Made by a program: the position numbers and the translations under genes
Notes under the pieces: generated by a model
Told to the model about the DNA's origin: nothing
What the model saw: the letters and a program-made list of their open reading frames with translations, nothing else
Databases searched by the model: none
In this document: positions 17,515 to 61,993 of the stretch, in pieces
Position numbering within the stretch: the first letter of the stretch is position 1
Layout of the letters: each line of letters opens with the position of its first letter
Origin: Spirochaetales bacterium
Lineage (GTDB): Bacteria; Spirochaetota; Leptospiria; Leptospirales; Leptonemataceae
Length of the DNA: 64,000 nt
Assembly: GCA_015075425.1 (NCBI GenBank)
Contig: JABTUL010000001.1
Coordinates: 124,001 to 188,000, forward strand
Reading direction: 5' to 3'

Positions 17515-20500
17515 ATGATGCTGAAGGGGCAATGGATCGGGCGTGTTCTTGCTCTGCTCTTTGCACTGCTGCTCAATCAGTGTGTGGCCTGGCCTGCGTC
17601 ACTATTGCTCGGTCTGGCCGGTGGTGCTGAGAAAAAAGGCGGAGTTTCTCCCCTTGTGGCGCTCCTTTTGGGAGGAAGTTCGGGCAGTGGCGGGACCGGT
17701 GGATCGGGAACAACGTCCCCGGCAAACCCCGGAGAGGCCACGATCTCAGGCGCACCCAGCGGTACAAGCAATGTAGGGAAAGCGGGTAATGAAAACCTCA
17801 GCGTTACCGTCGGTGGCACGGACGTGGTATCCTATAAGTTCAAGGTGGGCCCGGCTGCGACAACCGATTGCGCAGATGCAACAGGATACTCCGCGGATCC
17901 GGGCGTGGATATCGGCACACTGATTACAGAGAATATCTCCGGCCTGACTGATGGAGTGATCCGCCTCTGCGTGATTGGTGAAGATGGGGAGGGGAACTGG
18001 CAGGAGCTGACATCAGCCACCACTGTTACCTGGACCAAAGACACCGTCAATCCGACATCGGCTTCCGGTGTATCCGGCCCGGGCTATTCAGGATCGAATG
18101 TCAGCATATCTTATACGGCGGGTGCGGATGCCACAAGCACGGTCACAAATAACGTCAAGCTCTGTACGAACGCTACTTGCGACGCGGGCTGTACTGCTGC
18201 CGTTTCCAGCTCCGGCAGTCCGGCTGCCCTGAGCGGTGTGGCAGACGGGTCCTATTATTCCTGCGTGGAAACCGTTGATGCGGCTGGCAACAGTGCAGGC
18301 TTTGCGGCATCGCCCGGCACGACCATCGTCGATACCATTAACCCCACAGCGGTAGCCAACGTCGCTACAAGTCCAAACAGCTACACATCAAGCACCACCC
18401 TTACCGTGAACTTCGATAACGGATCGGATGCTAATATCAACCACAGCCAGTACAATATCAAAATGTGCAGTGGAAGCGATTGTTCCACCGGCTGTGGAAC
18501 TGTCAGCCAGGGCGGAAGCGGTGCCAGTCAGTCAGGCCTGAGTGATGGCGCGTACTATGCCTGTGTGCAGAGCGTTGATCTCGCGGGCAATACCGCTGCT
18601 TATGTGGCCTCCTCCCAGGTGACGATTGATACGCAAACTCCCGGAGTTGCCTCCGGAATATCACCCACGGCCGCCTCCTACACCACCACAGATTCTTATT
18701 CTATTTCTTTTACTGCTGGCTCTGATACAAATCCTGCTGCAAGTAACATTAAGCTCTGCACCAGCAATGATTGCAGTACGGGCTGCATGGGAGGCACGAC
18801 CGGCAATTCCGGCACTGCCATTTCCGGTCTGGTAGAAGGAACGGCCTACTACAGCTGCGTGCAGTCCGTTGATCTTGCGGGCAACGTCTCCGCCTGGACT
18901 CCATCCACACAGACGATAACCCGTGACAGTACGGCCCCAGCCCTTTCCATAACGGCACCGTCAGGTGGTGCTGGCGTGGCCGGGACTTCCACGATTTCTT
19001 TTAGCGGAGGCGAAGGAAACACTCAGGTTTCCATCGACGGCGGGACTACCTGGACCACAGTCAGCAGCGGCTTTGCCCTCTCCAGCCTGCCGGACTGGAG
19101 CAGTGCAACCTCTAATGGGTCACCTTTCACTCTGAGGCTTCGTGAAACTGACGCGGCCGGGAACATCGGAACGGCCGGTCCGGTCACCTACACAAGAGAT
19201 GATACCCTGCCCGTAGCCTCGGCTTCCGGTCAGCCCACGGGTGTCAGTAACTTCAACGCTGCTCTCTCCATAACAGTGGGCGGCGTGGGCCCGGTTACGC
19301 ACTATCGTCATAAGCTGGGAAATAGTTCCATCGATTGTACGGATAGTGGCGGGTACAGCGCGGAAACTCCCATCGCCACGCTCATCACCAACAACATCAG
19401 CGGTCTGGCCGAAGGCGGCGTCAAGCTCTGCATCGTCGGTCGCAAAACGACACCCGATACCTGGCAGGAATATACGGCGGCAACGGAAGTTACCTGGACG
19501 AAAGACACCCAGGACCCCGCCGCTCCGGCAGGCGCGACCATAACGGGCGGCAGCCACCAGAACATCACCCAACTCGAAGTTTCTTTCACCAATGGAACGG
19601 ACACCCATTTCAGTACCCATAATGTTAAAGCCTGCACCAATGCAGCCTGCAGCCTGGGCTGCGTTGGCGAAACAACAGATAGCGCTTCACCGGCGACGGT
19701 TACAAGCCTTGCCGATGGCAGTACCTATTACGCTTGTGTGCAATCCGTGGATCAGGCGGGCAACATCTCTGCCTGGGTAGCCTCCGGCGATACGGTCGTT
19801 GTGGATCGGACCAATCCCACGTCTCCGTCAGACGTTTCTCCGGTGGCCAGCACATATTCGAACAGCACTTCCTATTCTGTTACCTTCACTGCCGGCACGG
19901 ATGCCAATCTAACCGATAGCATTGCCCGTCTCTGTACGTCCAGCGACTGCGCCACCGGTTGCGTGACGGATGTGGCCGGTAGCTCTCCCATCAATGTGAC
20001 CGGACTGAGCAATGGCAGCACCTACTATGCTTGCGTGCAGTCTGTGGACCTGGCGGGCAATACCTCTTCATTTGTAGCGTCCGCTCAAACGATTGTTGTG
20101 GATACAACGGCACCGGTATTTACTTCCCTGGCACTGGCCAATGATGCTCTGGATGGCTATGTGAATGATGCGGAGACCGCAAACAGCAGTGCTCTGGGCG
20201 GCACATTGACCGGCTCCGGTTACGATACGGCAGAGTACAAACTGGTCACTCAGGCCACGGCCTGCGATGGTGCTCTGAGCTACGGGAGTATGCCCGGCAG
20301 TAATTCAGCCGATTTTGGTGCTGACGGAAATTATAAAATTTGTGTAAGACTGGCTGACCTGGCCGGTAACATCACCTATGGATCAAGTAGCAGTTTTGCT
20401 TTAAAGAAAACGTCAGCCGCTTTCACCTCCCTTTCTCTGGCCAACGATGCCACGGACGGCTACATCAGTAACGCAGAAAGCTCAAGCACTTCTGTTATGG

Positions 20501-23500
20501 GTGGCACCCTCACAGCCACCGGATACGATACGGCAGACTATAAACTGGTCACTCAGGCCACGAACTGCGATGGTGCGCTGAGCTATGGCAGCATGCCGGC
20601 CAGCAATTCTTCCGATTTTGGATCCGATGGTAACTACAAAATCTGCGTACGACTGCGCGATGATGCCGGCAATCCAGCCGTTTACGGGAACAGCGCCACG
20701 ATAGTACTCAAGAAAACTCCACCGGCATTTACCTCCCTTACACTGGCCAATGATGCAGCCGATGGCTACATTAACAATGCCGAGAGTAGCAGCAGCAGTG
20801 CTCTGGGCGGCACGCTTACTGCGACCGGATACGATTCTGTGGATTACAGGCTCGTCGGAACGGCTACAAGTTGCGATGGCGGACTGACGTATGGGGCCAT
20901 GCCGGCCAGCAATTCCGCCGATTTTGGTGTTGACGGTGATTATAAGATTTGTATAAGACTCTCCGACAATGCCGGAAACGTCACCTATGGTGCCAGCGGC
21001 ACCATTACGCTGAAAAAGACGGCTCCTTCTTTCACTTCTCTGGCCCTGGCAAACGACGCAACGGATGGCTATATCAACAACGCAGAAAGAGCAAGCACCG
21101 CTGCTCTGGGCGGAAGTTTAACGGCCTCCGGTTATGACACGGCAGAATACAAACTGGTTACGAACGTAACAACCTGTGACGCAGTGCTCACCTATGGTGC
21201 CATGCCGACCAGTGATTCTGTAGACTTTGGGGCCAATGGCAGCTACAAAATCTGCGTTAAGCTTTCGGATAATGCGGGCAATGTTGTCTACAATGCCAGT
21301 GCATCATTTACTCTGGATGCTACCCTTCCGGTGATTTCAGGCGTGGCCCCGGCCGCAGGCGGAACGGTTGCCAGCACCCTGGTCAGCTTCACACTGTCAG
21401 AAGTCTGTGCATCGGGCAGCACGACCTGGACTCAGGTGGGTGGAGCTGCCGATTCGAATTCGCCGCACGAGCAGGCCTGGAGTGGCGCTGAGCTTAACGC
21501 CGGGGCCCATAACAATATAACCCTGGTCAACAATCCCACTCTGGAAGACGGATCGGTTTACGATATTACCTTTGAGTGTACCGATTCCGCTGGCAATGAG
21601 GCGGCCGCGGTCACTGCGAGCGGTGTGACCTATTCTCCAGGACCGCTACAGATTTCCTTTGCGGAAACCCTTGATACGGATGGGGACGGAAAGATTGATA
21701 CTTATAAGATATCGCTTAACAAGCCGGTCAGTGATGACAGCTTTCCGGGTTACCAGTTGAATGCCCTGGGCAATGTCACTTCAGCGTGGCTCATTGCCGG
21801 TTATGCCAACGTTCGTTTGATCCACGGTTCCGCGGTGACCTTTGCCACAGACACGGTGGACGACAGCACTATTTACTTGCGATTTGATGAGAATTCCCTG
21901 ACCTGCGACAGCAGCTCACAGGTGGGTTGCGACACAGGATCCAAGCCCGACCTGACCACAACGGCAAGTCCGGGACTGGAAGATCTTGCCGCGCAGGTGC
22001 TGGCTCAAGTGACCACCGTGGCCGTTACCGAGTCTGATGGAGCACGACCGATTGTCGTCGGTGCGCGTTCGCTGGGTGCCACGGCCGTGGACGTATATTT
22101 TAGCGAAGCCGTCGATACCTCGACAGCCGACGTCTCCGGTAATTACAGCATTGCCAGCGGAGTAAGTGTATCTGCGGCCAGTCGCGATGGCACGAATCAG
22201 AAAGTCGTGCACCTGACGACCTCAGCTCAGGTGGGTGGAGAATCCTATACCCTCACGGTAAATACAAACGTTACTGATCTGGCCAACTACAATGTAAGTG
22301 CCAGTTCCAACACAGCCAGTTTTAATGGACTGGTGAAGCCTGTGGTATCGAGCATGTCAGCCACCAATGCTACGACCATTCAGCTTGTGTTCAATGAAAC
22401 CATGATCGCCTCCACTGTGGAGTGTTCAACCCTCTCTTCCTGCGCCGACATTTTTGATAGTATTGCTCTGCCGATTCTGAGCGCCGTCTCATCCGCCGGC
22501 AGTGGCAATGACTCGGCTACGTTCCTGTTGACAGTCAATCCCATGATAGAGGGCCAATCGTACACGGTCACAGTTATTGAGGATACAGCCCAGGCAGAGG
22601 CTACTCTGGAACTAATCGGTGATACAAACAATAGCGGTACCTTCACCGGCGATGGCCGTCCGGCCGCAACGGTGAGCACGGACACAGCGACGGCCTGTCC
22701 GGCCAACAATGGCTCGACCGGCGTGGCTCGCCGCGTTGTTTTACAGTACGATCAAACCGTGACTGCCGATGGTGGTGCGAACGCAGCCAATAACCCGTCC
22801 AACTATGCCATTCCCTCTGCAGTGAATGGTGGTTGTATCAGCGGCGCTTGCGGTAGCGGACTCAATCAGTCTTCTGCCTCTTCCGTGACCGATCTTGGTG
22901 GCAATAAATACGCTGTGGACTGGAGTACGAACTTTGCTACAGACGATAGCGTTTATAGACTCAACATTACCAATGTCCAGGATGCTGCGGGAAATACCGT
23001 AGCCACACCCACCTATGTTACCTTTCAGTGCGGCACGGACAATACTCCGCCCAGTCTCATATCCATAAGTGTGGTTACGGCCACTGCCGGAACAACAGTG
23101 CTGATGCTCACTTTCTCTGAAGCGGTGGACAGTGTAACGGCCAACACCTCTACGAATTACAAATATGATACAAATGCCTACGGGCACAATGTCAGCACGG
23201 CCGCGCGTCAGTCGAATCAAGCTCAGGTCCAGGTAACCTTTGTGCCTGCCATCGCCAATGGCGGCCACCAGCTACTCGTTCAGAATGTCCAGGACCTCTC
23301 CGGAAATACGATTCTGGCCAATGGGGTCAACAATGCTCAGCCATTCATCGTGAATGCACCCCAGGGATTTGTGGGTGGCCCGGTATTTGAAGATCCCTTT
23401 GCCGACGGAACACCGGCCGGACAACTGGTCATTTACGACAGCAAGCTCTATTTGGGAGCCGATACGAACGGATCCAAACTCTTTGAGATGGATCTGGGGC

Positions 23501-25074
23501 TTACCCAGGCACAGACCATTTCCATTGATGCCGATGGAACCATGGGTGCTCCCGTGGAGCAATTCAACGGCTATACAACGGACTACAGCGGCTGTCAAAC
23601 ACTGACCTATCCCAATTGCACGACCGGTTCTCCGACAGCAACCACCTCTGTGGATCAGATCTACTCTGCCTGCGTGGGTGGAACATCTACCCCGGCGATG
23701 ACCGGGTCAGAGTGTACGGATGAGTCCGGGACAGAATACTTTTTCATCGGTGCAGCCAATACAACAGGTTACTATAGATCCTTCTGGTATACAACGATGA
23801 AGTCCAGCGTGAGCACGATGTTTCCTTTCACTGAAGAGTGGTCAGGCGATCCGGCAGGCGTTGCCGCCTATCGCTCTGCGAATATCTTGCTCTTCAAGGA
23901 TCAATTGTTTGTTAACTATGGTGCAGAACTGGGTGGGGGAGGGCGGGGTGGCCGCGTTTGCATGAAGTCTGGCGGGTGCGATAATGGCAATTCCTTTCTG
24001 GGGCAAACCAGCCTGGATCAGTGGCAGCGCATCCGCCGCATTGGCGCGAATAATAACAACACACTGCGCAACGGTGCTTATCCCGGCGTTACGGGATACA
24101 GCGGCAGCAGTCCCGATAATCAGGTGCTCAATGCTATCAATGTCATGTATGAGTACGACAACGATGGCAGTGGCGGCAATGAATCGCAGCTGTACATTGC
24201 CAATGGTGGTTTCTATACGGGCAGCCTTGGCGCAGCAAGGACCGGAAACTCCGACGGTGGAATCATGCGCAGTGTGCTTTCTTACTCATCGCGTTCCTCT
24301 TTGATCCTGAACTGCCCGACAGACAGCAGCGGTTGCTCTACCTACTGGGAAGATGTTACTCCAGATTCTTTAAGCAAATGGAATACGTACCTGTCCACCC
24401 CGTTGCCGCAGAATTCGGCGGTGACCGGTGCTGGCAATTGCGCGACCAGTCTCATTGAAATGGATTGTGTCTTACCCTACAATGTATTCATACCGTCGCT
24501 CAAAGCGATTCCCTACATGCGTACGGCTCCCAATGGAGACCTGTACATGGTCCGCAATGCCTGCAGTACAACGTCGCTCAACCGCAACGGAGTCAATGGC
24601 GCCGGGGGCCAGGATTTCCGGACCGAGCGCCAGGTCTGCCCCCAGGGATACGAAGTACCGCAACTCTGGATGCTGCCTAAAGGCACTACCGGCTCACCCA
24701 AAGGTGCTGCAGACTGGGTACTCGTCGCAGAAAACGGGACGACGGGAAAAACCAATATGGGCACATCCAACAACACACATTTTAGTTTGCTGGAAATCGT
24801 TGGGGACTATCTATATATAGGCTTTGACAATGCAACTGGCGGGGCATCCGTATATCGTGTCGATATCAGTGGCTATGCGTCAGGCACAGCGCCTGCGCAG
24901 GGCAATTTTTCCATCGTGAATGTTCAGGGGATTGATGCCAGCGGTGGCGGCACAAACGTCAAAATCTTCTCCCATGTTACGGTGGAAGAAGGCGGGACGA
25001 ACTGGCTGATCATCACAACGCGCGATGGCACCGGAGCGATGCGGATCTATCGTACCGCGAATGACCAGACTTAG
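17515..25074 (+). CDS. Giant Ig-like repeat surface lipoprotein (2519 residues)
   Basis: The N terminus is a lipoprotein signal ending LLLNQC (Cys23), followed by a Gly/Ser-rich linker (about residues 50-80). Next come about eight Ig-like units of roughly 98 residues (about 80-865), most carrying C-x4-C-x3-C and CVQSVDLAGN. Four near-identical 101-102-residue units follow (869-1273), then a DxDxDG calcium-type loop (D1387) with SwmB/Big-like units to about 1945. A different C-terminal region of about 570 residues (from FVGGPVFEDP) has short repeated aromatic/Gly segments that look beta-propeller-like. The product is probably anchored in the outer membrane and exposed; an adhesin or structural role is inferred. 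There are many cysteine pairs. The start is the first of two adjacent ATGs. Confidence 0.85.
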   Translation: MMLKGQWIGRVLALLFALLLNQCVAWPASLLLGLAGGAEKKGGVSPLVALLLGGSSGSGGTGGSGTTSPANPGEATISGAPSGTSNVGKAGNENLSVTVGGTDVVSYKFKVGPAATTDCADATGYSADPGVDIGTLITENISGLTDGVIRLCVIGEDGEGNWQELTSATTVTWTKDTVNPTSASGVSGPGYSGSNVSISYTAGADATSTVTNNVKLCTNATCDAGCTAAVSSSGSPAALSGVADGSYYSCVETVDAAGNSAGFAASPGTTIVDTINPTAVANVATSPNSYTSSTTLTVNFDNGSDANINHSQYNIKMCSGSDCSTGCGTVSQGGSGASQSGLSDGAYYACVQSVDLAGNTAAYVASSQVTIDTQTPGVASGISPTAASYTTTDSYSISFTAGSDTNPAASNIKLCTSNDCSTGCMGGTTGNSGTAISGLVEGTAYYSCVQSVDLAGNVSAWTPSTQTITRDSTAPALSITAPSGGAGVAGTSTISFSGGEGNTQVSIDGGTTWTTVSSGFALSSLPDWSSATSNGSPFTLRLRETDAAGNIGTAGPVTYTRDDTLPVASASGQPTGVSNFNAALSITVGGVGPVTHYRHKLGNSSIDCTDSGGYSAETPIATLITNNISGLAEGGVKLCIVGRKTTPDTWQEYTAATEVTWTKDTQDPAAPAGATITGGSHQNITQLEVSFTNGTDTHFSTHNVKACTNAACSLGCVGETTDSASPATVTSLADGSTYYACVQSVDQAGNISAWVASGDTVVVDRTNPTSPSDVSPVASTYSNSTSYSVTFTAGTDANLTDSIARLCTSSDCATGCVTDVAGSSPINVTGLSNGSTYYACVQSVDLAGNTSSFVASAQTIVVDTTAPVFTSLALANDALDGYVNDAETANSSALGGTLTGSGYDTAEYKLVTQATACDGALSYGSMPGSNSADFGADGNYKICVRLADLAGNITYGSSSSFALKKTSAAFTSLSLANDATDGYISNAESSSTSVMGGTLTATGYDTADYKLVTQATNCDGALSYGSMPASNSSDFGSDGNYKICVRLRDDAGNPAVYGNSATIVLKKTPPAFTSLTLANDAADGYINNAESSSSSALGGTLTATGYDSVDYRLVGTATSCDGGLTYGAMPASNSADFGVDGDYKICIRLSDNAGNVTYGASGTITLKKTAPSFTSLALANDATDGYINNAERASTAALGGSLTASGYDTAEYKLVTNVTTCDAVLTYGAMPTSDSVDFGANGSYKICVKLSDNAGNVVYNASASFTLDATLPVISGVAPAAGGTVASTLVSFTLSEVCASGSTTWTQVGGAADSNSPHEQAWSGAELNAGAHNNITLVNNPTLEDGSVYDITFECTDSAGNEAAAVTASGVTYSPGPLQISFAETLDTDGDGKIDTYKISLNKPVSDDSFPGYQLNALGNVTSAWLIAGYANVRLIHGSAVTFATDTVDDSTIYLRFDENSLTCDSSSQVGCDTGSKPDLTTTASPGLEDLAAQVLAQVTTVAVTESDGARPIVVGARSLGATAVDVYFSEAVDTSTADVSGNYSIASGVSVSAASRDGTNQKVVHLTTSAQVGGESYTLTVNTNVTDLANYNVSASSNTASFNGLVKPVVSSMSATNATTIQLVFNETMIASTVECSTLSSCADIFDSIALPILSAVSSAGSGNDSATFLLTVNPMIEGQSYTVTVIEDTAQAEATLELIGDTNNSGTFTGDGRPAATVSTDTATACPANNGSTGVARRVVLQYDQTVTADGGANAANNPSNYAIPSAVNGGCISGACGSGLNQSSASSVTDLGGNKYAVDWSTNFATDDSVYRLNITNVQDAAGNTVATPTYVTFQCGTDNTPPSLISISVVTATAGTTVLMLTFSEAVDSVTANTSTNYKYDTNAYGHNVSTAARQSNQAQVQVTFVPAIANGGHQLLVQNVQDLSGNTILANGVNNAQPFIVNAPQGFVGGPVFEDPFADGTPAGQLVIYDSKLYLGADTNGSKLFEMDLGLTQAQTISIDADGTMGAPVEQFNGYTTDYSGCQTLTYPNCTTGSPTATTSVDQIYSACVGGTSTPAMTGSECTDESGTEYFFIGAANTTGYYRSFWYTTMKSSVSTMFPFTEEWSGDPAGVAAYRSANILLFKDQLFVNYGAELGGGGRGGRVCMKSGGCDNGNSFLGQTSLDQWQRIRRIGANNNNTLRNGAYPGVTGYSGSSPDNQVLNAINVMYEYDNDGSGGNESQLYIANGGFYTGSLGAARTGNSDGGIMRSVLSYSSRSSLILNCPTDSSGCSTYWEDVTPDSLSKWNTYLSTPLPQNSAVTGAGNCATSLIEMDCVLPYNVFIPSLKAIPYMRTAPNGDLYMVRNACSTTSLNRNGVNGAGGQDFRTERQVCPQGYEVPQLWMLPKGTTGSPKGAADWVLVAENGTTGKTNMGTSNNTHFSLLEIVGDYLYIGFDNATGGASVYRVDISGYASGTAPAQGNFSIVNVQGIDASGGGTNVKIFSHVTVEEGGTNWLIITTRDGTGAMRIYRTANDQT
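18061..20118 (+). repeat. Ig-like domain array, C-x4-C-x3-C type
   Basis: Units begin near 18061, 18355, 18652, 18946, 19219, 19519 and 19822. Most share a strand with CTx-x-CxxGC, a DGSxYYxCVQSVD segment and a terminal DxxxPT linker. The units at about 18946 and 19219 diverge: the first lacks the cysteines, and the second matches the unit before the array (about 17755-18060). Conservation of the paired cysteines suggests a disulfide in each unit. Confidence 0.75.
20119..21333 (+). repeat. Four tandem 303-306 bp repeats (FTSLxLANDAxDGY units)
   Basis: The repeats run 20119-20421, 20422-20727, 20728-21030 and 21031-21333. Each begins FTSL-LANDA-DGY and contains GGxLTxxGYDxxxYxLV, a CDxxLxYGxMP loop and DFGxxGxYKICV-L-DxAGN. 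DNA similarity is high by eye, so recent duplication and copy-number variation are likely. Confidence 0.85.
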
Positions 25075-49709: not shown

Positions 49710-52523
49710 ATGAAGCCTGGCTATCTTTTCCTGTTCTGGATAGCCAGCCTGGGAAGTATTCTCCTGGCTGCGGAAGTTGAGCTACAATCATTCCGCCCCG
49801 ACAGGGGTGCGCCGGATCGTGCTCTGGAAGAGCAGATAGCGCAGCATTTACAGAAGGAATTGAAAGCCCAGGGTCTGGCTGTGCAGTCCGGTGCCCCGCT
49901 TAAGATTCGCGGTTTTTACAGAAAAGGCCGCATGCTGGTTTTGTATGGTGAAATATACGATTCTCAGGGGAACCTTCTCGATGCTTTCACTACCACGGAA
50001 GACTATGCTGGCCTTGCCGGCCTGCGACTGCCGGATGAAGAGTGGCAATCCAGTGATGATTCCATATTGGAAGAATTCAGTTCCATTCTGGTGCGGCGGA
50101 TCAAATCGAATCCCCGTCACAAAGTTCGCGCGGAAAATTTGGAGGAGTACGCTCTGTCCGCACCCGAGCCGGAGCGGCTGAAAACAAAAGAGGCGGCCAG
50201 CGAAGTGTTTGCGATGCTGGAAGAGCAGTTCGTGGTCACGGCCACACGCAGCAAAATTCGTTTGCGCGAAGCGCCGGCAGCAGTCTACGTGATTACCTCT
50301 CAAGATATCCGTGCTCGCGGATACAAGACTCTTGTGGAAGCCTTACACGATGTTCCTGGTTTTGATATCATTCATGTTTATGGCATTTTTCCGGATCTCA
50401 TCCATCAGCGCGGCCTTGTCGGCAATAACCAGCGCACTCTGCTCTATGTGGATGGAATCCCTGATAACAACATCACAGAGAACGCATTTCTTGCCGGAAG
50501 TACTCGCTTTCCGTTGCATCATGTGGAGAGAATTGAAATTGTTTCCGGTCCAGCCTCTGCCCTTTACGGCGCCAATGCATTCAACGGAATCATCAACATT
50601 ATCACTCGCGATGGAACGGGTCCGGATGCCACCCGGGTGGAAGCTTTTTATGGAAACTATGAGCCAGACGGCAAGAATCCAGGCCAGGGGTTCAGTCTGA
50701 CGACGGGCGGGGCGGCCACGGCAGAATTTCCCTTTCGCTACAATGCCAGCGCTTACTACTACCAGACTCAGGGCCCGTACTTTGGCGATCATCGTCGGCT
50801 GGATAAACCAACAAAAGATAGCGAAGAAGCCATCAAGCGCCGTTTCGATGCCGATTACTTTACCGAGGCCGCTCTCTGCCAGGGTCAGTGCGAGCCTGAT
50901 GAGAACTCCATTGGTTACTACTGGAGTCCCGGGTTCAATGTTTCCTATGAAGAAACATACAATATTGTAGCCCGATTTCAGGCGGGCAATGTCCGTTTTG
51001 AGACGGTAAACTGGCAGTATCTGCAGGGGGATGGTACCTTTGCCAATGGAACCCAGCAGATTGATACTAAAGAGCGGGGGCTGGAAACGGATCGTTATGA
51101 TGTACGCAACAATGCGCGTCGGCTGGCCATTGCCAACGGGCAGGCCGGACCACAGGGTTTTTCCGGTTCACAGTGGGATTTTCGCAATAACAGCATGGCT
51201 TTCGGGTACCTGCACGACTTTGCCGATAAACTGAGCCTCGACAGTGAACTTGTGGTGCGCCATACAGAAATTCTCAGTTCCAGCCGGGAGGAGTATCCCA
51301 ATGACCCCGGACCCTACGCCACCTATACTCCCGGGGACGATTTCAACACAGTAGCCGACGGTTACAGCCGACCGGATTACCAGTACAGCCTGAATGAGAA
51401 AATCAACTATGCCGGTAGCCGCCACGAAAGCACGGTCGGCCTGGAAGGAACCTATACCCAGGTTCCTCAGGGGTACGGGGCATCGCGGCAGTTCGTTTAC
51501 AAAAACTATGCTTTTTACTATCAGGGGCTGTGGCGACCTTTCTCTTTTATGAATTTTACCTTTGGCTACCGGCAGGACGACAACTCCATCTATGGGACCT
51601 CGCATACACCGCGCCTCGGCCTGGTATTCTTTCCCACCGGCAATCTCACTCTAAAATTTCTGGCCGGGACCGGTTTCCGGGCACCGACCGCCTGGGAGCT
51701 TTTCAATGCCACCCGTCAGCGCCGGGCCAATCCTGGCCTTAAACCGGAGCAACTGCGTAGCGGGGAAGCCGGCATCGCTTACCGTCTTACGGACCGTTAC
51801 TATTTCTCTCTAACGGCTTTTTATAATGAAATCAGTGATTTGATTTTAGAAGTGCAGACCAAAGAGCCCCGGGAGGATGACGCTGCCCAGAACTTCAATC
51901 AGAACCAGAACGTGGGTGAGGCAGTGATTTATGGATCAGAATCCCAGGCCGTCCTGGAAATCACGCCAGAGTTCAAAGTTCATCTGCATCATACTTACTC
52001 GCGCGGCAACTATGTCAATCTTCCGGGCCCGGAGGCACTGTCGACATCGCCGTCCACGCGAGGTCGTCCAGGAGATGATCCGCTCACCGACTATATCGTT
52101 CAAGAGTATCAGACCTGGGCTGCCACACACCCGCTGGAAGATCTGTATCTTCAGTCGATAGACGTGGAATATGAACCCTTCACCGGACCCATACCCAATA
52201 TCCCCGCTCACAAGGGTGGCATAGGCTTTACCTGGCAGGCCACTCCGCGGCTTTCCCTGCATCTGCGGCATAATTACGTGGACGTGCGGCGAACCGTTGG
52301 TACCAATCCGGAAAATACCATTCATGGCTATCACTGGTTCCACAGCAATGTGCGTCTGGAGGATGTTTTTGCCGAGGGTCTGTACATGCAGCTTTCATTT
52401 CGCAACATGGGCGATGCGCGGATCTATGATCCAGGGATTCGCACGGCCACCGGCGCCTACTATCCCACGCGTCATCCGCTCGAAGGGCGCAATGTCTGGT
52501 TTACTATGGGTTACAAATTTTAA
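49710..52523 (+). CDS. TonB-dependent outer membrane receptor with N-terminal extension
   Basis: A 937-residue protein with a signal peptide (YLFLFWIASLGSILLAAE). Residues about 20-160 form an extra periplasmic domain of unknown type. A TonB-box-like EEQFVVTATRSK follows (about residue 170). The plug domain (about 185-310) has AAVYVITSQDIRARG, LYVDGIPDNN, ERIEIVSGPASALYGANAFNGIINIIT. The beta-barrel ends with a C-terminal Phe (WFTMGYKF). The substrate is unknown. It is convergent with a periplasmic ABC_sub_bind-TPR gene nine bases away. Confidence 0.95.
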   Translation: MKPGYLFLFWIASLGSILLAAEVELQSFRPDRGAPDRALEEQIAQHLQKELKAQGLAVQSGAPLKIRGFYRKGRMLVLYGEIYDSQGNLLDAFTTTEDYAGLAGLRLPDEEWQSSDDSILEEFSSILVRRIKSNPRHKVRAENLEEYALSAPEPERLKTKEAASEVFAMLEEQFVVTATRSKIRLREAPAAVYVITSQDIRARGYKTLVEALHDVPGFDIIHVYGIFPDLIHQRGLVGNNQRTLLYVDGIPDNNITENAFLAGSTRFPLHHVERIEIVSGPASALYGANAFNGIINIITRDGTGPDATRVEAFYGNYEPDGKNPGQGFSLTTGGAATAEFPFRYNASAYYYQTQGPYFGDHRRLDKPTKDSEEAIKRRFDADYFTEAALCQGQCEPDENSIGYYWSPGFNVSYEETYNIVARFQAGNVRFETVNWQYLQGDGTFANGTQQIDTKERGLETDRYDVRNNARRLAIANGQAGPQGFSGSQWDFRNNSMAFGYLHDFADKLSLDSELVVRHTEILSSSREEYPNDPGPYATYTPGDDFNTVADGYSRPDYQYSLNEKINYAGSRHESTVGLEGTYTQVPQGYGASRQFVYKNYAFYYQGLWRPFSFMNFTFGYRQDDNSIYGTSHTPRLGLVFFPTGNLTLKFLAGTGFRAPTAWELFNATRQRRANPGLKPEQLRSGEAGIAYRLTDRYYFSLTAFYNEISDLILEVQTKEPREDDAAQNFNQNQNVGEAVIYGSESQAVLEITPEFKVHLHHTYSRGNYVNLPGPEALSTSPSTRGRPGDDPLTDYIVQEYQTWAATHPLEDLYLQSIDVEYEPFTGPIPNIPAHKGGIGFTWQATPRLSLHLRHNYVDVRRTVGTNPENTIHGYHWFHSNVRLEDVFAEGLYMQLSFRNMGDARIYDPGIRTATGAYYPTRHPLEGRNVWFTMGYKF

Positions 52524-52532
52524 GAAAGCCAA

Positions 52533-54050
52533 TCACTGGCGCTGTAGCAATTCTTCAATGGCGGCCCGCTTGCGTTGCGATAAGCGCAAGTATTCTGAAG
52601 CTTCTTTGTGTCCTGGAGCAATCAGCAAAATATTCTCATAGAGAGCGATAGCTTCTGTATAGTGTCGCGATGTGTAGTGGCCTTCTGCTTCTGCAAGGAG
52701 TGCGGGCAGGCGCGCCGCCTGTATGGCCCGTAGCTGGGAAAGCTCCCCGGCGGCGCGCTGGTTTTCCGGATTGGTCAGGACGGCCTGTTGTAGCAGGCGA
52801 ATCGCTCCAAAGGGATCACCGCCAGCAATCGCTTGCGCCCGCCCGCGTTGCTGTTCACTCAGGGCCGCCCTTGCTGCATCCAGGCCACGCAGAGCCTCCC
52901 GATTGCGCTCATGGACTTTGAGTACCGCGCGGTAATCCGCAATGGCCCGTTCGTACGCGCCCCGTTTGAAGTGCTCCTGAGCGGAGCCAAGCAGCTGTCC
53001 TGTGCGAGCGCCGGTGAGTTGTTCCACCACGCGTGCCCGGTAAAGTAGAGCCGATTCGTTGCGCGGATCATCGGCAAGGATTCGATCAAAAACAATCTGA
53101 GCCGATTTATAGCGACCGTCGCGATACAGATTGAGCCCTGCATGGAAGAGGCCGGTCATGCGAGCCCGTTCCTTGAGATTCTCCGGAATTTTCAGTCCTG
53201 ATGCACGCGCATATTCTTCATTTAAGTAAAAGGCTGTCTGGTCGGTGAACCGCACACCTTCGCGCTGACAGCTTGAACCTTTGAGCATCCTGTTGGCCAT
53301 TTCACCGGTGAGAGCACCCAGACGACCATAGTCTGCCGTGACCGCAAAGGTTGCCCCTGATCGCACAAGAGAGGCAAAGCCGGTCATGAGCACGATCCGG
53401 TTTTTTTTGGCGAAGTCTGATAGAAATTCAAAGTTGCTGCGATCGTAGATGGGATCAGCGGCTACAAAGATGGCATCGACCTTTTCCTGATCTTTAATGC
53501 GCGATATCAGCGCTGATCTTGTCGTCTTTACCTTCTGGAACCGCAGGCCGTGCTTTAAGTCCAGGTAATCGCCTTCTCCCAGAAGAAAAGCTGATTGTTC
53601 TGTGGAATAAAAGGCCACAACGGATTGCGCGTCCGGTTTGATCTCCTTTAGCACCCGGAAGTATTCTGCCAGAGAAATATGCAGGCTCAATCCGCAGCTC
53701 TTGCGGCGACTGTCCAGGGTGCGTGGAGAGTCAATCATACTGAAAAGGACGGGGAGGGCAGTCGCCTGATCCAGAGCCTGCTTTGTAGCAACCGGTCCCA
53801 CGGTAATGATGAGCTTGCGGTCGTTGCCCTGAGCACTGCGGAAGTAGGCTGTGAGGTCGCCGTATTTTTCTTCTATGGCATCCAGATACTGAATTTGAAT
53901 CGGGGCATCTATGCTCGACTGCAGGCCGTCCAGGCTACGGGCATACATGCTGGTGTCGGCAGAAATGAGGACGTCAACAGCAGTTTGTGCGGCTGCCGCC
54001 CGAAGCCAGACCAGAGCAGAAATCACAACCCATAAGCTTCGAGCAGGCAT
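52533..54050 (-). CDS. Periplasmic ABC_sub_bind-like sensor with TPR tail
   Basis: From ATG 54050 the 505-residue protein begins with a signal peptide (SLWVVISALVWLRAAAAQ). Residues about 25-290 resemble the ABC_sub_bind family (tandem Rossmann-like lobes: VDVLISADTSMYA, LIITVGPVATKQAL, PVLFSMI, AQSVVAFYSTEQSA, VDAIFVAADPIYD). Residues about 310-505 are tetratricopeptide-like (LNLYRDGRYKSAQIVFDRIL and later units). No ABC permease or ATPase is nearby. A ligand-sensing or scaffold role linked to the TonB receptor or the divergent PP2C is inferred. A longer start would enter the divergent gene. Confidence 0.8.
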   Translation of the reverse strand: MPARSLWVVISALVWLRAAAAQTAVDVLISADTSMYARSLDGLQSSIDAPIQIQYLDAIEEKYGDLTAYFRSAQGNDRKLIITVGPVATKQALDQATALPVLFSMIDSPRTLDSRRKSCGLSLHISLAEYFRVLKEIKPDAQSVVAFYSTEQSAFLLGEGDYLDLKHGLRFQKVKTTRSALISRIKDQEKVDAIFVAADPIYDRSNFEFLSDFAKKNRIVLMTGFASLVRSGATFAVTADYGRLGALTGEMANRMLKGSSCQREGVRFTDQTAFYLNEEYARASGLKIPENLKERARMTGLFHAGLNLYRDGRYKSAQIVFDRILADDPRNESALLYRARVVEQLTGARTGQLLGSAQEHFKRGAYERAIADYRAVLKVHERNREALRGLDAARAALSEQQRGRAQAIAGGDPFGAIRLLQQAVLTNPENQRAAGELSQLRAIQAARLPALLAEAEGHYTSRHYTEAIALYENILLIAPGHKEASEYLRLSQRKRAAIEELLQRQ

Positions 54051-54130
54051 CAAATCTACGAAATTACAGGAGATTATTTTTTCAATTGATTTCTTACCGC
54101 CTCCGGGGCAGTCTCTGCCGGGAGCTCTTT

Positions 54131-55651
54131 GTGGGAACACTGCTGAAAAAGTTCAATCGGATCCGTTTCAAGCTCATTGCTCTGGTGGCCACAGTGGTGT
54201 TTATTACGGTCAGCCTGCTTTCTGCCGTGGTTTTCATTCAGGTGCGCGATATTATCATTGACCGGACCTATGAAATCTGCTCAACTCTGGCCAATCAGCT
54301 CTCGGCGGCAGCGACAGAAGAATTGCTGGTCGATGAAGTCTATGATACAACGCGCAGCACCCTGGCCGGCCTGGATAAAGAGGCAATTCTGGGTCTGGAA
54401 AATTCCTACATACTCAATGTTAACCACAGGATTATTGCCCACACCAGTTCAGAGCTGGTGGGTCAGGCCGCGCCGGATGCGGATGTGAAATACTTTGAAA
54501 GCATCGGCGCACTGGATTTATCAGAAATAGACCAGGGGCGCACCATACTCCGTTTTTCTTTTCCTGTCTTGATCGATTACCGCGGACAAACATTGCGGCT
54601 GGGAACTGTTGTTTTTGAATTCGATAAAGATGCAATACTGCAACCCGTGGCCACGATTCGCTCTCTGGTTTTTTTTATCGCCCTGGCTTTATTCACCGCT
54701 TCTTTGCTTCTGGCCTACGTGTTGTCCAAACGTTTGAGCGGACCCATCATCGAACTGTCCGAGGCAGCGGGCCAGCTGGCCCGGGGAAATCTGGGACGGC
54801 AGGTCCGGGTCAGAAGCATGGATGAGATCGGCAACCTGGCCCAGACCTTTAACAGTATGTCCGTGAGTTTGCAGGAAGGAGAGAAAATCAAAATCGAAAA
54901 GGCAGCCCTGAGTCGTGAAATGGATCTGGCGCGCAACATCCAGATGTCTCTTTTGCCGCCCAACGGCGTGGTTTCCTGCTATGAATTTCTCGGTGGCATG
55001 GAAACAGCCGATGAAGTGGGCGGCGATTACCTCGATTGCATTCACATCAAGGAAGGTCGACACGACTACACCTGGTTTTTCATCGGAGACGTTTCCGGTC
55101 ACGGGCTACGGTCGGGACTCATCATGCTTATGGCGCAAACCGCTTTACACACTCTGCGTGAACTACGGCAAACGGAAGTGGACCAGGCTTTTCTAACGCT
55201 CAACAAAATACTGTACGACAATATCGTCCGTTTGAGCGAATTTAAATACATGACCGCAACGCTGTATCGCGCGGATCCTCAGGGGAATTTTGAGTTTGCC
55301 GGCCTCCATCAAGACATCTATATCTTTCGGCAGCGCACCAAAAAGGTGGAGACGATTCCCTCGCGTGGCATGTGGCTGGGCATAGAAGAGGACATCAAAG
55401 CAGCAACGCGCAGACACCGTTTCCGTCTGGAGAAAGGGGATTTGCTCTTCCTTTATACGGATGGAATCATAGAAACACACTCACCGGCCGAGGAGATGTT
55501 CGGACATGAAAGGCTCGTGGAAATACTGGAAAAAAATGGGCAGCGGGCCCTGCCGGAAATAAAGGAAAAGCTTGAGTCTACGTTGGTAGAGTTTAGAGGT
55601 GACTCTGTGCTGGATGACGATATCACCTTTGCCCTGATCCGCAGAAAATAA
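54131..55651 (+). CDS. Transmembrane HAMP-PP2C (RsbU-type) serine phosphatase
   Basis: The start is GTG 54131 with GGGAG seven bases upstream, giving 506 residues. TM1 (about 14-38), a periplasmic sensor region of about 135 residues (dCACHE-like), TM2 (about 178-198), HAMP (RLSGPIIELSEAAGQLARGN, about 200-255), a helical linker (MDLARNIQMSLLPP), then a PP2C/SpoIIE domain: EVGGDYLDC, FIGDVSGHGLRSG, LFLYTDGIIE, DDDITFALI. It should remove phosphate from an anti-sigma antagonist in response to an external cue. It is divergent to the ABC_sub_bind gene and heads a four-gene operon. Confidence 0.92.
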   Translation: MGTLLKKFNRIRFKLIALVATVVFITVSLLSAVVFIQVRDIIIDRTYEICSTLANQLSAAATEELLVDEVYDTTRSTLAGLDKEAILGLENSYILNVNHRIIAHTSSELVGQAAPDADVKYFESIGALDLSEIDQGRTILRFSFPVLIDYRGQTLRLGTVVFEFDKDAILQPVATIRSLVFFIALALFTASLLLAYVLSKRLSGPIIELSEAAGQLARGNLGRQVRVRSMDEIGNLAQTFNSMSVSLQEGEKIKIEKAALSREMDLARNIQMSLLPPNGVVSCYEFLGGMETADEVGGDYLDCIHIKEGRHDYTWFFIGDVSGHGLRSGLIMLMAQTALHTLRELRQTEVDQAFLTLNKILYDNIVRLSEFKYMTATLYRADPQGNFEFAGLHQDIYIFRQRTKKVETIPSRGMWLGIEEDIKAATRRHRFRLEKGDLLFLYTDGIIETHSPAEEMFGHERLVEILEKNGQRALPEIKEKLESTLVEFRGDSVLDDDITFALIRRK

Positions 55652-55652
55652 T

Positions 55653-56132
55653 ATGTCGTTTCATCTTACCATAGAACCGGAATGGAACATCATCAGCAAG
55701 ATCCGCCAGGCCATTGAAAAGGCAGAGGAGCTGGCCGGGCAGAACCGTGACTTCATGGAGGCCACCCGGCTGACGGCCATAGAACTGGTGGAGAACGCTT
55801 TGAAGTATTCGGATGCCGGAGGCGGGGATCGGCCTGTCTCCTTTGACTTTGAGCTCAACAATCGGAACGATCATATCACCATCACCGTGACCAATCCCTG
55901 CACGGATGAAAAGCGCAAGAGGGTGCTTGAGGAAACAATCGCTGAGATCCAGGGAGGAGATCCTTTTACACTGTACGTGCAGCGCCTGGAAGCTCTGAAG
56001 GATAACCCGGATGGCCACAGTCGAATGGGTTTGTACCGCATTGCCTACGAAGCGGAATTTAAGTTAACCCTGGAATTAAAGCCGGCTGAGGTGAAAATCA
56101 TGGCTGTCCGCAAGCTGGAGGGAGTCCCGTGA
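55653..56132 (+). CDS. RsbW-like HATPase (anti-sigma / switch kinase)
   Basis: A 159-residue single-domain GHKL ATPase: N-box AIELVENALKYSD (E44, N48) and a C-terminal G-type loop HSRMGLYRIAY. No HisKA is present. Position between a PP2C phosphatase and a STAS-like protein fits the partner-switching kinase role: it would phosphorylate the STAS protein and bind an alternative target. It starts one base after the PP2C stop and ends in a GTGA overlap with the STAS gene. Confidence 0.85.
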   Translation: MSFHLTIEPEWNIISKIRQAIEKAEELAGQNRDFMEATRLTAIELVENALKYSDAGGGDRPVSFDFELNNRNDHITITVTNPCTDEKRKRVLEETIAEIQGGDPFTLYVQRLEALKDNPDGHSRMGLYRIAYEAEFKLTLELKPAEVKIMAVRKLEGVP

Positions 56133-56497
56133 GTTTGCGTGATTTGCAGGTAGAAGATTTTCAAATCAAAGCCGTGGAAGAACCGGGCATTCTCAAGCTT
56201 GATTTTCTGGGTAGCATCCAGCAACTCAATCCAGAAGATTTCATGGTCCCTTATCTGACTGAGGTTTTTGAATTTGCCCGTCAGAAAAAATTGAAAATAG
56301 AATGTAATTTTGTAGGTCTGGAGTATATGAATTCCGCCAGCATTCCGCCGCTGATTACTCTGATGCGCAACATGGCAGACAAGAAAGTGCACGGTGTGTT
56401 CATCTATGATGCCAGTCGTAAGGTCCAGGCTGCCTCTTTTAAGGCTCTGGATGTAATTGCCAGGAAATCGGAATTCACCACAGTGAAGGGTGTCTGA
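56129..56497 (+). CDS. STAS-like switch protein (slr1659-type)
   Basis: A 122-residue protein starting with GTG in a GTGA overlap. The fold and length fit STAS/anti-anti-sigma proteins; the core segment is FVGLEYMNSASIPPLITLM. The canonical DSSG phospho-site reads N68-S69-A70-S71, so the usual phospho-Ser position is Ala, with Ser on either side. It resembles the slr1659-type regulators found with PP2C phosphatases and HATPases in other bacteria. It is the likely substrate of the HATPase upstream and of the two PP2C enzymes. Confidence 0.78.
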   Translation: MSLRDLQVEDFQIKAVEEPGILKLDFLGSIQQLNPEDFMVPYLTEVFEFARQKKLKIECNFVGLEYMNSASIPPLITLMRNMADKKVHGVFIYDASRKVQAASFKALDVIARKSEFTTVKGV

Positions 56498-57698
56498 AGT
56501 GACCGCGGATCTCTGGGAGCAGGCACCGGAAGCTGAATTCCTGCTCCAGCAGAGCAACATTTTGCGCATGAACCAATCAGGCCGGGATCTGCTCCAGGCT
56601 GCGGGACTGGATGCTGAGAAAATCAAGAAAACCAGCGATCTTGTAGACGCTCTGTTTTCTGAGCGGCACCGCAATCGTTTCTATGAGTTTCTGAAAAGTG
56701 AAATGAAATATTCTACCTTTGATTCTCTGTTTCCGGACGGGCGACAGTTCTATTTTCGCGCCGCAAAATGCAGGATGGCAGACGGATCTATTTTGATCAG
56801 TCTGCAGGACATAGCAGACATACAACTCAATGCAGAGGCCCTGCGCGCCGGGTATGATGAATTTTTGAAATTGAGTACGGACCTGGAAGCGGCTCTGGGG
56901 ACGATTGCCGAACAGAATCGCCAGCTGGAAAAACAAAAGAAAACTCTGGAAGAGGAAATGCAGCTGGCCCATGCGCTACAGGACCATGTCTTTGCTCAGG
57001 ATTTTGGCCGTTACCAGACTGTGCGTATAGCAGGCTATTACCGGGCCATGGAGCAACTCGGTGGCGACCTGTGGGAATTTTATGAAGGGCAGTCTTTTTT
57101 TGCCGGGATGGGAGATGTCATGGGCCACGGCATCGCTGCGGCTTTGATCTCTGTTGCCAGCAAAACCCTGCTGAAGAAAGGATTTGAGGCCGTGGACCAG
57201 GGAAAGTATGACTTGGGACAGATGGGCACGGCAATCAATCAAGAACTTTTAGAAATAACCAATGGTAGTTACTACGTGACTGCTGCGCTGGTATGCATCA
57301 ATCGCGATCACACCGTCCAGATCATGACCTGCGGTCATCCGGCCATCCTGATTGTTCCGGCGGCCGGCGGTGCCGTTGATGTTGCTTTTACCGAACAACC
57401 CATGCTCGGAATCATTCCGGGAACACGCTACCACCATATGGAAAGGAAATTGAATCCCGGAGACCGGGTATTCCTCTACACGGATTGCCTGATTGAGACA
57501 ATCAGTCCTGAAGGTGAGCCGATTGATCCGGAAGAACTTTCTACGTTACTGCATCTGCAACATGGATCTCCACAGAGCGTGATTGATAACGTTCTTCAGT
57601 TTCTGCGCAAACACCAGGGCAGTGATCATTTCAATGACGATCTGGCCATGCTATGCATTGAAATACCGCTTCCCGCAGCAGAGCCAGCCCGGATTTAA
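56490..57698 (+). CDS. PAS/coiled-coil PP2C (RsbU-type) phosphatase
   Basis: A 402-residue soluble protein: PAS-like N-terminal part (residues about 10-120), coiled coil (about 130-170, NRQLEKQKKTLEEEMQLAHA), and a PP2C/SpoIIE domain with QLGGDLWEF, MGDVMGHGIAAALIS, VFLYTDCLIET and FNDDLAML. The metal-binding aspartates are retained; the usual G of the YTDG motif is Cys. GTG 56490 overlaps the end of the STAS gene. A second, cytosolic phosphatase would allow internal and external signals to converge on one switch. The stop shares TTAA with the convergent trmL stop. Confidence 0.9.
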   Translation: MSEVTADLWEQAPEAEFLLQQSNILRMNQSGRDLLQAAGLDAEKIKKTSDLVDALFSERHRNRFYEFLKSEMKYSTFDSLFPDGRQFYFRAAKCRMADGSILISLQDIADIQLNAEALRAGYDEFLKLSTDLEAALGTIAEQNRQLEKQKKTLEEEMQLAHALQDHVFAQDFGRYQTVRIAGYYRAMEQLGGDLWEFYEGQSFFAGMGDVMGHGIAAALISVASKTLLKKGFEAVDQGKYDLGQMGTAINQELLEITNGSYYVTAALVCINRDHTVQIMTCGHPAILIVPAAGGAVDVAFTEQPMLGIIPGTRYHHMERKLNPGDRVFLYTDCLIETISPEGEPIDPEELSTLLHLQHGSPQSVIDNVLQFLRKHQGSDHFNDDLAMLCIEIPLPAAEPARI

Positions 57699-60007: not shown

Positions 60008-61993
60008 TTGAAATGTTCTAAGATAGGGATCGTCCTTGTTTCTTTTCTGACTTTGCTCCATAATACGGGCTGCTTTCAGGCAGAAACGGACAATCCGATG
60101 GATCCAGAAAAACCTTCGGGGCTGCTATTGAGCCTCGGATCCTCCGGGGGACAGCAGGCGTTGCAATCGCTTTTGATCAGCGGTTATCCCGCAAGCCTGC
60201 GCGAGGGTGAGAGCGGGCATTTGCGCCTGGTGATGAACGGACCGGTAGGCGGGACCACCACTGTGGAAGTTGCCAGTAGCTCCAGCTCATTGCTTGTGGC
60301 GAACGCGGCAAACACCCAGGTGCAGTTTTCCGCCGCCGATGCAACCACGGAGAAACTCATTTCCCTCCATGCACCGCAAGATGACAATGCCACTTCTGAG
60401 GAAGTAACTCTCAGCATTCGCCACGGGTCCTCGCTGCGTACCGTTTCCATCGCCATAGAAGACGATGATGAGCAGGCCATTCTTCTGGTGGCTCCGTCAC
60501 TTGTGCGCGAAGGGGAAAGCAGCGACTTACAGATTTCTTTGCAAGCCAGACCGGAGGCAAGCGTGGAAGTCAGCATAGCATCGGGTGATCCCGCCCTTGA
60601 ACCTCATCCGCACACGTTAACTTTCTTACCGGAAAATTACGCTACCGCTCAGACGGTTTCACTGGTCGCGCCAGCGGATGCCAATCAGGTTTCAGAACGT
60701 GTATCCCTGCAGATTTCCAGCGGAGGACTTGCGGAAACGGCCTGGGTTGAAGTAATCGATAGCGATGCAGCCATTGTTCAGATTTCTTCAGGGATGCATC
60801 ATAACTGCGCCCTTTACGCAACCGGTACGATTCGCTGCTGGGGAAACAATGAATTCGGTCAGCTGGGCTATGGCAACACAACGAACATTGATACGGTAAC
60901 GGCCGTTGGCACCGTAGAAGCCGGAGCGAATATCAAACAGGTACTGGCTGTGGGGCATGTGACCTGCGTAGCCTACCAGAATGGCACGGTTCGTTGCTGG
61001 GGGAACAACGACTATGGTGAATTGGGCCAGGGCGATACGGTGCATCGCGGTCTGACGCCGGAAACAAGGCCGCTCCACATTCCGCTCATCAATATTGGTG
61101 GCACGGTGGATCGGCTATCAGGCGGCTATGACCACATCTGCGCTCTCTTGACCAATGGGAAAGTGCGCTGCTGGGGTAAGGGAACGGATCTGGGCTATTT
61201 GGGCTACAATGGAACCAACCATGTCGGTGATGATGAGCTGCCGGCTGAGGTGGGGGACATCAATATCGGCGGAACCGCCGTAGATATCGTGTCAGGTGGA
61301 TACCATAGTTGTGTTCTTCTGGATACAAAACGGATGCGCTGCTGGGGCCGCGGGCAACATGGCCGGCTGGGTTACGGACATACGATCAGCGTGGGAACCT
61401 TGTATGAGCCATGGGAGGCCGGGGATGTGCCTCTGGACAATGTTGTCAGCATGGCTGCCGGCGACAATCATACCTGTGCGAGTACGGCATCAGGCCAGTT
61501 GTACTGCTGGGGTTTTAATTCTTATGGAGGTCTGGGACGCGGTAACTATGAGCACCTGGGTGACAACGAAGCGATTACGGCCCACGGTCCTCTGGCTCTG
61601 GGCAGCGATGTTCCGGTGAGCAGTGTAAGCGCGGGTTTCGGGCATACCTGTGCTGTGCTGGATAACGGCCAGGCAAAGTGCTGGGGCTGGGATTTCCTGG
61701 GTCAACTGGGAGATGGAGGAGACTATGATCCGCTTCCGAGTGCTCAGGTAGCGCCCTTCCTGGACGCCGGTTCTTCCTTCCGGAAAATAACGGCCGGTTT
61801 TGCGCACACCTGCGGACTGCTTTCGAGCGGCAGGGTGCGATGTTGGGGGAACCATGCCTGGTCTGCGCTGGGAATCGGTCCGGCAACACATGACCCCTAC
61901 CCGGATGCATCTACGGTTCCTGATCTGGACCTTGCCTGGACGCATATACGCCAGGCATTCTTACTGGCACTGCGTTTTCTCACTGCGGGATGA
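60008..61993 (+). CDS. RCC1-propeller lipoprotein with Calx-beta-like domains
   Basis: The start is TTG 60008, supported by GAGGG at 59996-60000. The signal peptide ends LHNTGC (Cys22). Residues about 50-260 hold two Calx-beta/Big-like units (VREGESSDLQISL; TLTFLPENYATAQTVSL). From about 260 there are seven RCC1 repeats, each with C-x-L near the start and RCWG near the end (seven C-W-G motifs), consistent with a seven-bladed propeller. Each blade has a cysteine pair, suggesting disulfides as in exported bacterial RCC1 proteins. 661 residues. Likely a surface ligand-binding or adhesive protein. Its stop overlaps the next gene (ATGA). Confidence 0.88.
   Translation: MKCSKIGIVLVSFLTLLHNTGCFQAETDNPMDPEKPSGLLLSLGSSGGQQALQSLLISGYPASLREGESGHLRLVMNGPVGGTTTVEVASSSSSLLVANAANTQVQFSAADATTEKLISLHAPQDDNATSEEVTLSIRHGSSLRTVSIAIEDDDEQAILLVAPSLVREGESSDLQISLQARPEASVEVSIASGDPALEPHPHTLTFLPENYATAQTVSLVAPADANQVSERVSLQISSGGLAETAWVEVIDSDAAIVQISSGMHHNCALYATGTIRCWGNNEFGQLGYGNTTNIDTVTAVGTVEAGANIKQVLAVGHVTCVAYQNGTVRCWGNNDYGELGQGDTVHRGLTPETRPLHIPLINIGGTVDRLSGGYDHICALLTNGKVRCWGKGTDLGYLGYNGTNHVGDDELPAEVGDINIGGTAVDIVSGGYHSCVLLDTKRMRCWGRGQHGRLGYGHTISVGTLYEPWEAGDVPLDNVVSMAAGDNHTCASTASGQLYCWGFNSYGGLGRGNYEHLGDNEAITAHGPLALGSDVPVSSVSAGFGHTCAVLDNGQAKCWGWDFLGQLGDGGDYDPLPSAQVAPFLDAGSSFRKITAGFAHTCGLLSSGRVRCWGNHAWSALGIGPATHDPYPDASTVPDLDLAWTHIRQAFLLALRFLTAG

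Follow-up and report, generated by a model that had tools for sequence, protein, structure and literature searches.

Known partner switches and envelope-crossing signaling

The well-known route of outer-membrane receptor signaling runs via a pair of anti-sigma and sigma factors, and in the TorT-TorS and LuxP-LuxQ systems the membrane sensor receives its signal through a periplasmic binding protein. In the Rsb system of Bacillus (RsbU, RsbP, RsbV and RsbW), two PP2C phosphatases, one of which bears a PAS domain, act on a single STAS protein that is phosphorylated by a HATPase. The mechanism of the Rsb partner switch has been described (PMC8256260). In the SiaABC(D) system of Pseudomonas aeruginosa, a membrane HAMP-PP2C phosphatase, a HATPase-fold kinase and a STAS-like phosphoprotein are encoded in one operon (PMC7647112, PMC8457831), and SiaC is phosphorylated at T68 within the peptide LLYLNTSSIK (PMC7647112).

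Here, we describe a locus of six genes in a 64,000-nucleotide stretch of a leptospiral-type spirochaete genome (the window), which combines a predicted switch of this kind with an input module of three components. The source genome has a size of 4.13 Mb, and its relatives are Leptospirales metagenome-assembled genomes (MAGs). An earlier note made from the sequence had proposed the six genes as an envelope-to-cytoplasm partner-switching system; all of them are present at the positions given there, and Pfam and family profiles agree with the assignments. The open reading frames (ORFs) encode a TonB-dependent receptor (49710-52523, plus strand), an ABC_sub_bind-TPR protein (52533-54140, minus strand), a membrane HAMP-PP2C phosphatase (53987-55651, plus strand), a HATPase (55653-56132, plus strand), a STAS-like protein (56129-56497, plus strand) and a PAS-PP2C phosphatase (56490-57698, plus strand). 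The receptor gene and the ABC_sub_bind-TPR gene converge with 9 bp between them, and adjacent genes of the four-gene phosphatase operon abut or overlap. Judged from the sequences, the two joined modules, an input triad and a SiaABC-like output, probably form a trans-envelope relay leading from the receptor via the binding protein to a phospho-switch, a reading that we hold with moderate confidence.

A predicted partner switch with a chimeric membrane phosphatase

The HATPase is a putative serine kinase resembling slr1658 and SiaB (slr1658 superfamily, 1.6e-15). Since the single-sequence family matches of the kinase and the STAS protein are weak, family alignments and profiles were built for both, and with these the two assignments of the earlier note became firm. 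All 12 aligned kinase relatives match the slr1658 superfamily, and the family keeps the N-box residues E44, E47, N48, K51 and Y52 and the motif G-x-S-x-x-G-L-x-R-I. The family profile also matches RsbW (0.003), and the SiaB model NF038262 recognizes the kinase at 2.6e-4 (20.6 bits, with a cut-off of 85) and three of the 12 relatives. By sequence, the HATPase is distantly related to the slr1658/SiaB kinases. The STAS protein resembles slr1659 and SiaC and is a predicted phosphoprotein. Its family profile matches TM1442 (2.5e-7) and SpoIIAA in the PDB, the slr1659 superfamily is matched by 14 of 16 relatives, and PF09345 (SiaC/DUF1987) reaches 0.003, which is under its cut-off. The residues N68 and S69 are invariant across 16 homologues, and in the profile alignment Ser69 (codon at 56333-56335, plus strand), the predicted phosphosite, falls on the phosphosite serine of SpoIIAA. 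The surrounding motif YMNSAS, part of LEYMNSAS, resembles the YLNTSS motif of SiaC, which contains T68.

The last gene of the operon encodes a cytoplasmic PP2C phosphatase (SpoIIE, 3.8e-36) with conserved motifs GGD, GDVMGHG, TDC and DD, including the metal-binding aspartates; TDC stands where TDG is usual and is invariant among the orthologues. Its designation as PAS-PP2C holds for the PP2C part, while a PAS domain was detected in the orthologues and not in the window copy. The operon thus combines genes for a kinase, a STAS protein and PP2C phosphatases whose catalytic and phosphosite residues are conserved, and these proteins very likely constitute the core of a partner switch. The suggestion that two phosphatases act on the STAS protein would fit these conserved residues.

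The membrane phosphatase (about 506 amino acids from a predicted GTG start, 54131-55651, plus strand; HAMP 5.5e-12, SpoIIE 1.2e-38) resembles SiaA and keeps the PP2C motifs GGD, GDVSGHG, TDG and DDD with the metal-binding aspartates. Its N-terminal half (54140-54886, plus strand) comprises a first transmembrane helix, a WalK-like Cache domain, a second transmembrane helix and a HAMP domain. The AlphaFold2 (AF2) model of this sensor, built from a shallow alignment, has a predicted local distance difference test score (pLDDT) of 82.6, and Foldseek matches it to the extracellular Cache domain of WalK with a TM-score of 0.73 of the target. In alignments, the Cache-HAMP half is a member of the sensor family that the triads described below share as their input domain. 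The catalytic PP2C domain (55064-55645, plus strand) has a different affiliation. In a tree of 37 PP2C domains, the PP2C-TPR group of the triad is set apart from the rest with 100/100 support; this group also contains one other PP2C-TPR protein, which adjoins a SiaB/SiaC-like pair. The second group holds the window's phosphatase, which makes up a single clade with its orthologues (100/99), as well as most SiaB/SiaC-associated PP2Cs. The membrane phosphatase is therefore a chimera, in which a triad-type sensor is joined to a SiaA-type, SiaB/SiaC-associated PP2C, and this fusion ties an envelope input to the partner switch. In total, 35 SpoIIE/PP2C-domain matches were found in the 4.1 Mb genome, which points to a large complement of phosphatases.

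Compared with SiaABCD, the locus lacks a linked SiaD diguanylate cyclase (the flanks that were scanned contain no GGDEF gene, see below), adds the PAS-PP2C as a second phosphatase, has a STAS protein that is nearer to the slr1659 and SpoIIAA models than to PF09345, and couples its sensor, as the sequence evidence suggests, to a binding protein and a TonB receptor. The membrane phosphatase has the domains expected of SiaA, and the SiaA model NF038263 matches at 3.9e-18, but its score of 65 bits is under the cut-off of 700. The core thus resembles a SiaABC-type partner switch without linked SiaD, to which only part of the Sia definition applies. Among named families, the slr1658 and slr1659 superfamilies (NCBIfam NF047703 and NF047705) match the kinase and the STAS protein best; a literature search found no paper with either name in title or abstract. 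The Rsb system shares with the window two PP2Cs, one of the PAS type, and one STAS protein; it differs in that no sigma factor is linked in the window and that the window's membrane phosphatase has the triad input. Ten flanking ORFs (44.2-49.3 kb and 57.7-63.2 kb) were scanned, among which neither a sigma factor nor an ABC transporter was found, in agreement with the earlier note. The note had also considered the full composition undescribed. This does not hold for the core, which would work like SiaABC and slr1658/slr1659; the modular input triad, by contrast, is apparently undescribed, and no relevant paper on it was found among open-licence papers.

A probable input triad recurring within the class

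The triad consists of the receptor, the binding protein and the Cache-HAMP sensor. The receptor has 937 amino acids with a signal peptide, a plug (Pfam, 3.8e-20) and a barrel (2.4e-31). Its extra periplasmic domain (about amino acids 20-165; 49767-50204, plus strand) is real. It matches no Pfam family, a PDB sequence search gave nothing significant, and among 48 genomes sampled from the class its profile recurs in 23, at about 58 places. The AF2 model of the domain has a mean pLDDT of 76.5 (shallow alignment), and Foldseek points with weak significance (E ~1e-3) to periplasmic folds of the TolB N-domain, PelC and LptE type, so that the fold can be called weakly TolB-N-like. Between this domain and the plug, the translation contains the sequence FVVTATRS (50229-50252, plus strand), which we take to be a TonB box from its general likeness to that motif. 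For the ligand of the receptor, several TonB families matched, none close to its cut-off. The binding protein is predicted to be periplasmic (about 505 amino acids; 52533-54050, minus strand) and contains an ABC_sub_bind domain (PF04392, 4.4e-17) and tetratricopeptide repeats (TPR_2, 3.2e-12); among named models, TrpX comes closest to it. It differs from the binding proteins of TorT-TorS and LuxP-LuxQ in its TPRs and in its linkage to a TonB receptor, and the output behind the sensor is a PP2C in the window.

The class was sampled with 48 genomes, mostly MAGs with contig breaks; named Leptospira isolates were not confirmed in this sample or in the phylum sample below. With a threshold of E <= 1e-100 for the binding-protein-TPR family, and with strong matches plus two cut by contig ends counted for the Cache-HAMP family (weak matches in G004 and G005, ~1e-37 and ~1e-40, were excluded), the two families are found in an identical set of 22 genomes. 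The receptor N-terminal domain is found in these 22 genomes and one more. A sensor lies within 5 kb of 28 of the 30 binding-protein genes; the remaining two belong to G023, maybe owing to a contig break, and to G006, where the sensor is on another contig. This nearly one-to-one pairing supports the neighborhood that the earlier note had pointed out, and the class-wide co-occurrence rules out a chance neighborhood. Sensor and receptor domain are both close to the binding-protein gene in 22 of 30 cases (within 5 and 6 kb, respectively). Pairwise distances are correlated between binding protein and sensor (r = 0.835, p <= 1e-4, 10,000 permutations), between receptor N-terminal domain and binding protein (r = 0.756), and between the remaining pair (0.670). 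In a phylum sample of 296 genomes, no strong triad member was found outside the class, the sole outside match being weak (3e-31) and partial.

Behind the sensor domain, different outputs are found: PP2C-TPR (about 850 amino acids, the commonest), PP2C (517 amino acids), adenylate/guanylate cyclase and HisKA-HATPase (L058, L060). By this distribution, binding protein and receptor appear as a separate, wider module that feeds other outputs elsewhere.

Variants of the triad components were also observed. The window's genome encodes another receptor (L068:6134-8785) with the same N-terminal domain and no adjoining binding protein or sensor, and at L062:5135-12376 two tandem receptors with this domain stand directly ahead of a single binding-protein gene. 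In a second, more distant version of the triad (L063:5218-10646, L064:4835-10880, L065:3134-8918), the TonB receptor lacks the N-terminal domain, the binding protein is shorter, and the HAMP-PP2C has another kind of periplasmic domain.

Conservation of the locus in relatives

According to the earlier note, the receptor and binding-protein genes should stay beside the operon in relatives, and this check, set beforehand, found all six genes kept in three sister-genus species (L031, L032, L033). In these species, HAMP-PP2C, kinase, STAS protein, PAS-PP2C and binding protein are encoded in this order in one tightly packed operon, which converges on the receptor gene; the four-gene block is flipped relative to the window, and the binding-protein gene is the fifth gene of the operon. 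The adjoining receptor orthologues have about 47% identity. In G012, the locus is split: contig C86 ends with the receptor and binding-protein genes and, beside them, the start of the sensor gene, and contig C250 opens with the remainder of the sensor, the kinase and the STAS protein.

In G006 and G011, the kinase-STAS-PP2C operons (L034:8769-10355 and L067:4527-7096) stand beside a different binding protein, which is an SBP_bac_3 protein in G011 (Pfam) and SBP_bac_3-like by eye in G006, and beside a putative porin, a protein without a Pfam match whose barrel was judged from the sequence. These neighbors suggest another outer-membrane input to the same switch, so that the use of an outer-membrane protein and a binding protein as input would recur with other parts.

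Proposed relay and alternative readings

From the observed gene content, synteny, co-occurrence, domain identities, conserved residues and the chimeric phosphatase, we infer a direction of signaling, contacts between the proteins, a ligand and an effector as follows. The TonB receptor, whose TonB box is preceded by the N-terminal domain, would bind or import an outside ligand. The periplasmic binding protein would capture this ligand or touch the receptor domain, and would then engage the Cache domain of the membrane phosphatase, thereby altering the HAMP output. In the cytoplasm, the HATPase would phosphorylate Ser69 of the STAS/SiaC-like protein, from which the membrane PP2C, responding to outside input, and the PAS-PP2C, responding to inside input, would remove the phosphate again. 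In its unphosphorylated form, the STAS protein may then free or bind an effector encoded elsewhere. The coupling of receptor, binding protein and sensor is suggested by their conservation; that of binding protein to sensor is likely, and the role of the receptor as the signal source is somewhat less so, although still favored. We see an even chance that the loci represent an undescribed modular trans-envelope family of leptospiral-type spirochaetes, in which a TolB-N-like TonB receptor, a binding-protein-TPR adaptor and a Cache-HAMP transmitter have their outputs swapped among PP2C, cyclase and histidine kinase, and which is here fused at the gene level to a SiaB/SiaC switch, so that ligand binding at the outer membrane sets a serine phospho-switch. 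If true, such a conserved relay from receptor via binding protein to HAMP domain with interchangeable outputs would be another envelope-crossing route, and it would offer testable inputs for some of the many PP2Cs of this group, most of whose signals are probably unknown.

Several observations weigh against this relay. The kinase and STAS scores are under the curated cut-offs (57 and 17.6 of 100 bits for slr1658/slr1659). The G012 locus has no PAS-PP2C, because the STAS gene is directly followed by a gene that we take, by eye, to be recA. The sensor operon and the binding protein of G006 are on different contigs, and the orthologous operons of G006 and G011 have the other neighbors described above. 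Only 27 of the 58 receptors with the N-terminal domain adjoin a binding protein, and the distance correlations in part reflect shared ancestry. The search for an effector found neither a linked cyclase or sigma factor nor any other constant neighbor.

The TonB receptor could be only a regulated target or transport partner of a coupled binding protein and sensor, and not the source of the signal. Its linkage is indeed weaker than that of the sensor within the distances used (24 of 30 binding-protein genes have the receptor domain within 6 kb, against the 28 of 30 given above), 31 of the 58 receptors have no binding protein nearby, and in three genomes of genus g2 the receptors are 11-15 kb away. 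We nevertheless regard this as somewhat unlikely, since the N-terminal domain is nearly confined to triad-bearing genomes, its pairwise distances follow the binding protein's, and its place ahead of the TonB box is that of the signaling domains in transducing TonB receptors. In FecA-FecR-FecI transducers, an extra periplasmic domain is located at the same place and could signal inward as well; the window's domain differs from it in lacking a Pfam match and in being weakly TolB-N-like.

On the output side, the HATPase could hold a sigma factor encoded elsewhere, with the STAS protein as its antagonist, as in a classical anti-sigma system. We consider this unlikely: the best families are the slr1658/slr1659 and SiaB groups and not RsbW, and no sigma gene was found in the scanned flanks, even though the profiles do match SpoIIAA/TM1442 and RsbW and no cyclase or other effector is linked.

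Still less probable is that the genes are independent neighbors, the receptor and the binding protein serving nutrient uptake and the operon being a separate partner switch that senses via its own Cache domain. Cache domains usually bind ligands themselves, G011 has kinase, STAS protein and PP2C without the triad, and the separate contigs of G006 point the same way. The identical genome distribution and adjacency of the binding-protein and sensor families and the single operon of the sister genus argue for the relay instead, as does the absence of an ABC permease or ATPase from the scanned flanks, for which an ABC uptake system was rejected as well. FecA-type signaling was likewise rejected for the lack of an STN match (Pfam) and of FecR/FecI genes in the same flanks.

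Concerning effectors, SPOR-like and OmpA-like proteins (recognized by eye) flank operons in g4 and are unmatched in the window; as effector candidates they are not supported. Beside many distant SiaB/SiaC-like pairs of the class, genes for proteins of about 460-475 amino acids were observed (L076:3856-5283, L073:4983-6374), one a putative methyltransferase and one without a Pfam match, which are possible effectors.

Gene starts and further observations

In the ORF list, the binding-protein and membrane-phosphatase ORFs overlap on paper. The binding protein likely starts at the ATG at 54050 (M31 of its ORF), which is followed by a signal peptide, with 54140 as the alternative start; the phosphatase likely starts at the GTG at 54131, where GGGAG lies upstream and the homologue alignments begin. 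With these starts, for which the signal peptide, the Shine-Dalgarno site and the alignment of homologues were used, the two divergent genes would be separated by a gap of about 80 bp (54051-54130) instead of overlapping. Matches to consensus promoters occur at the level of shuffled sequence, with none in this gap, and a riboswitch or other structured RNA was rejected, as Rfam gave no match.

Elsewhere in the window, an RCC1-repeat protein of 661 amino acids, a eukaryote-like repeat type, is encoded at 60008-61993, and a very long ORF of 2519 amino acids is found at 17515-25074.

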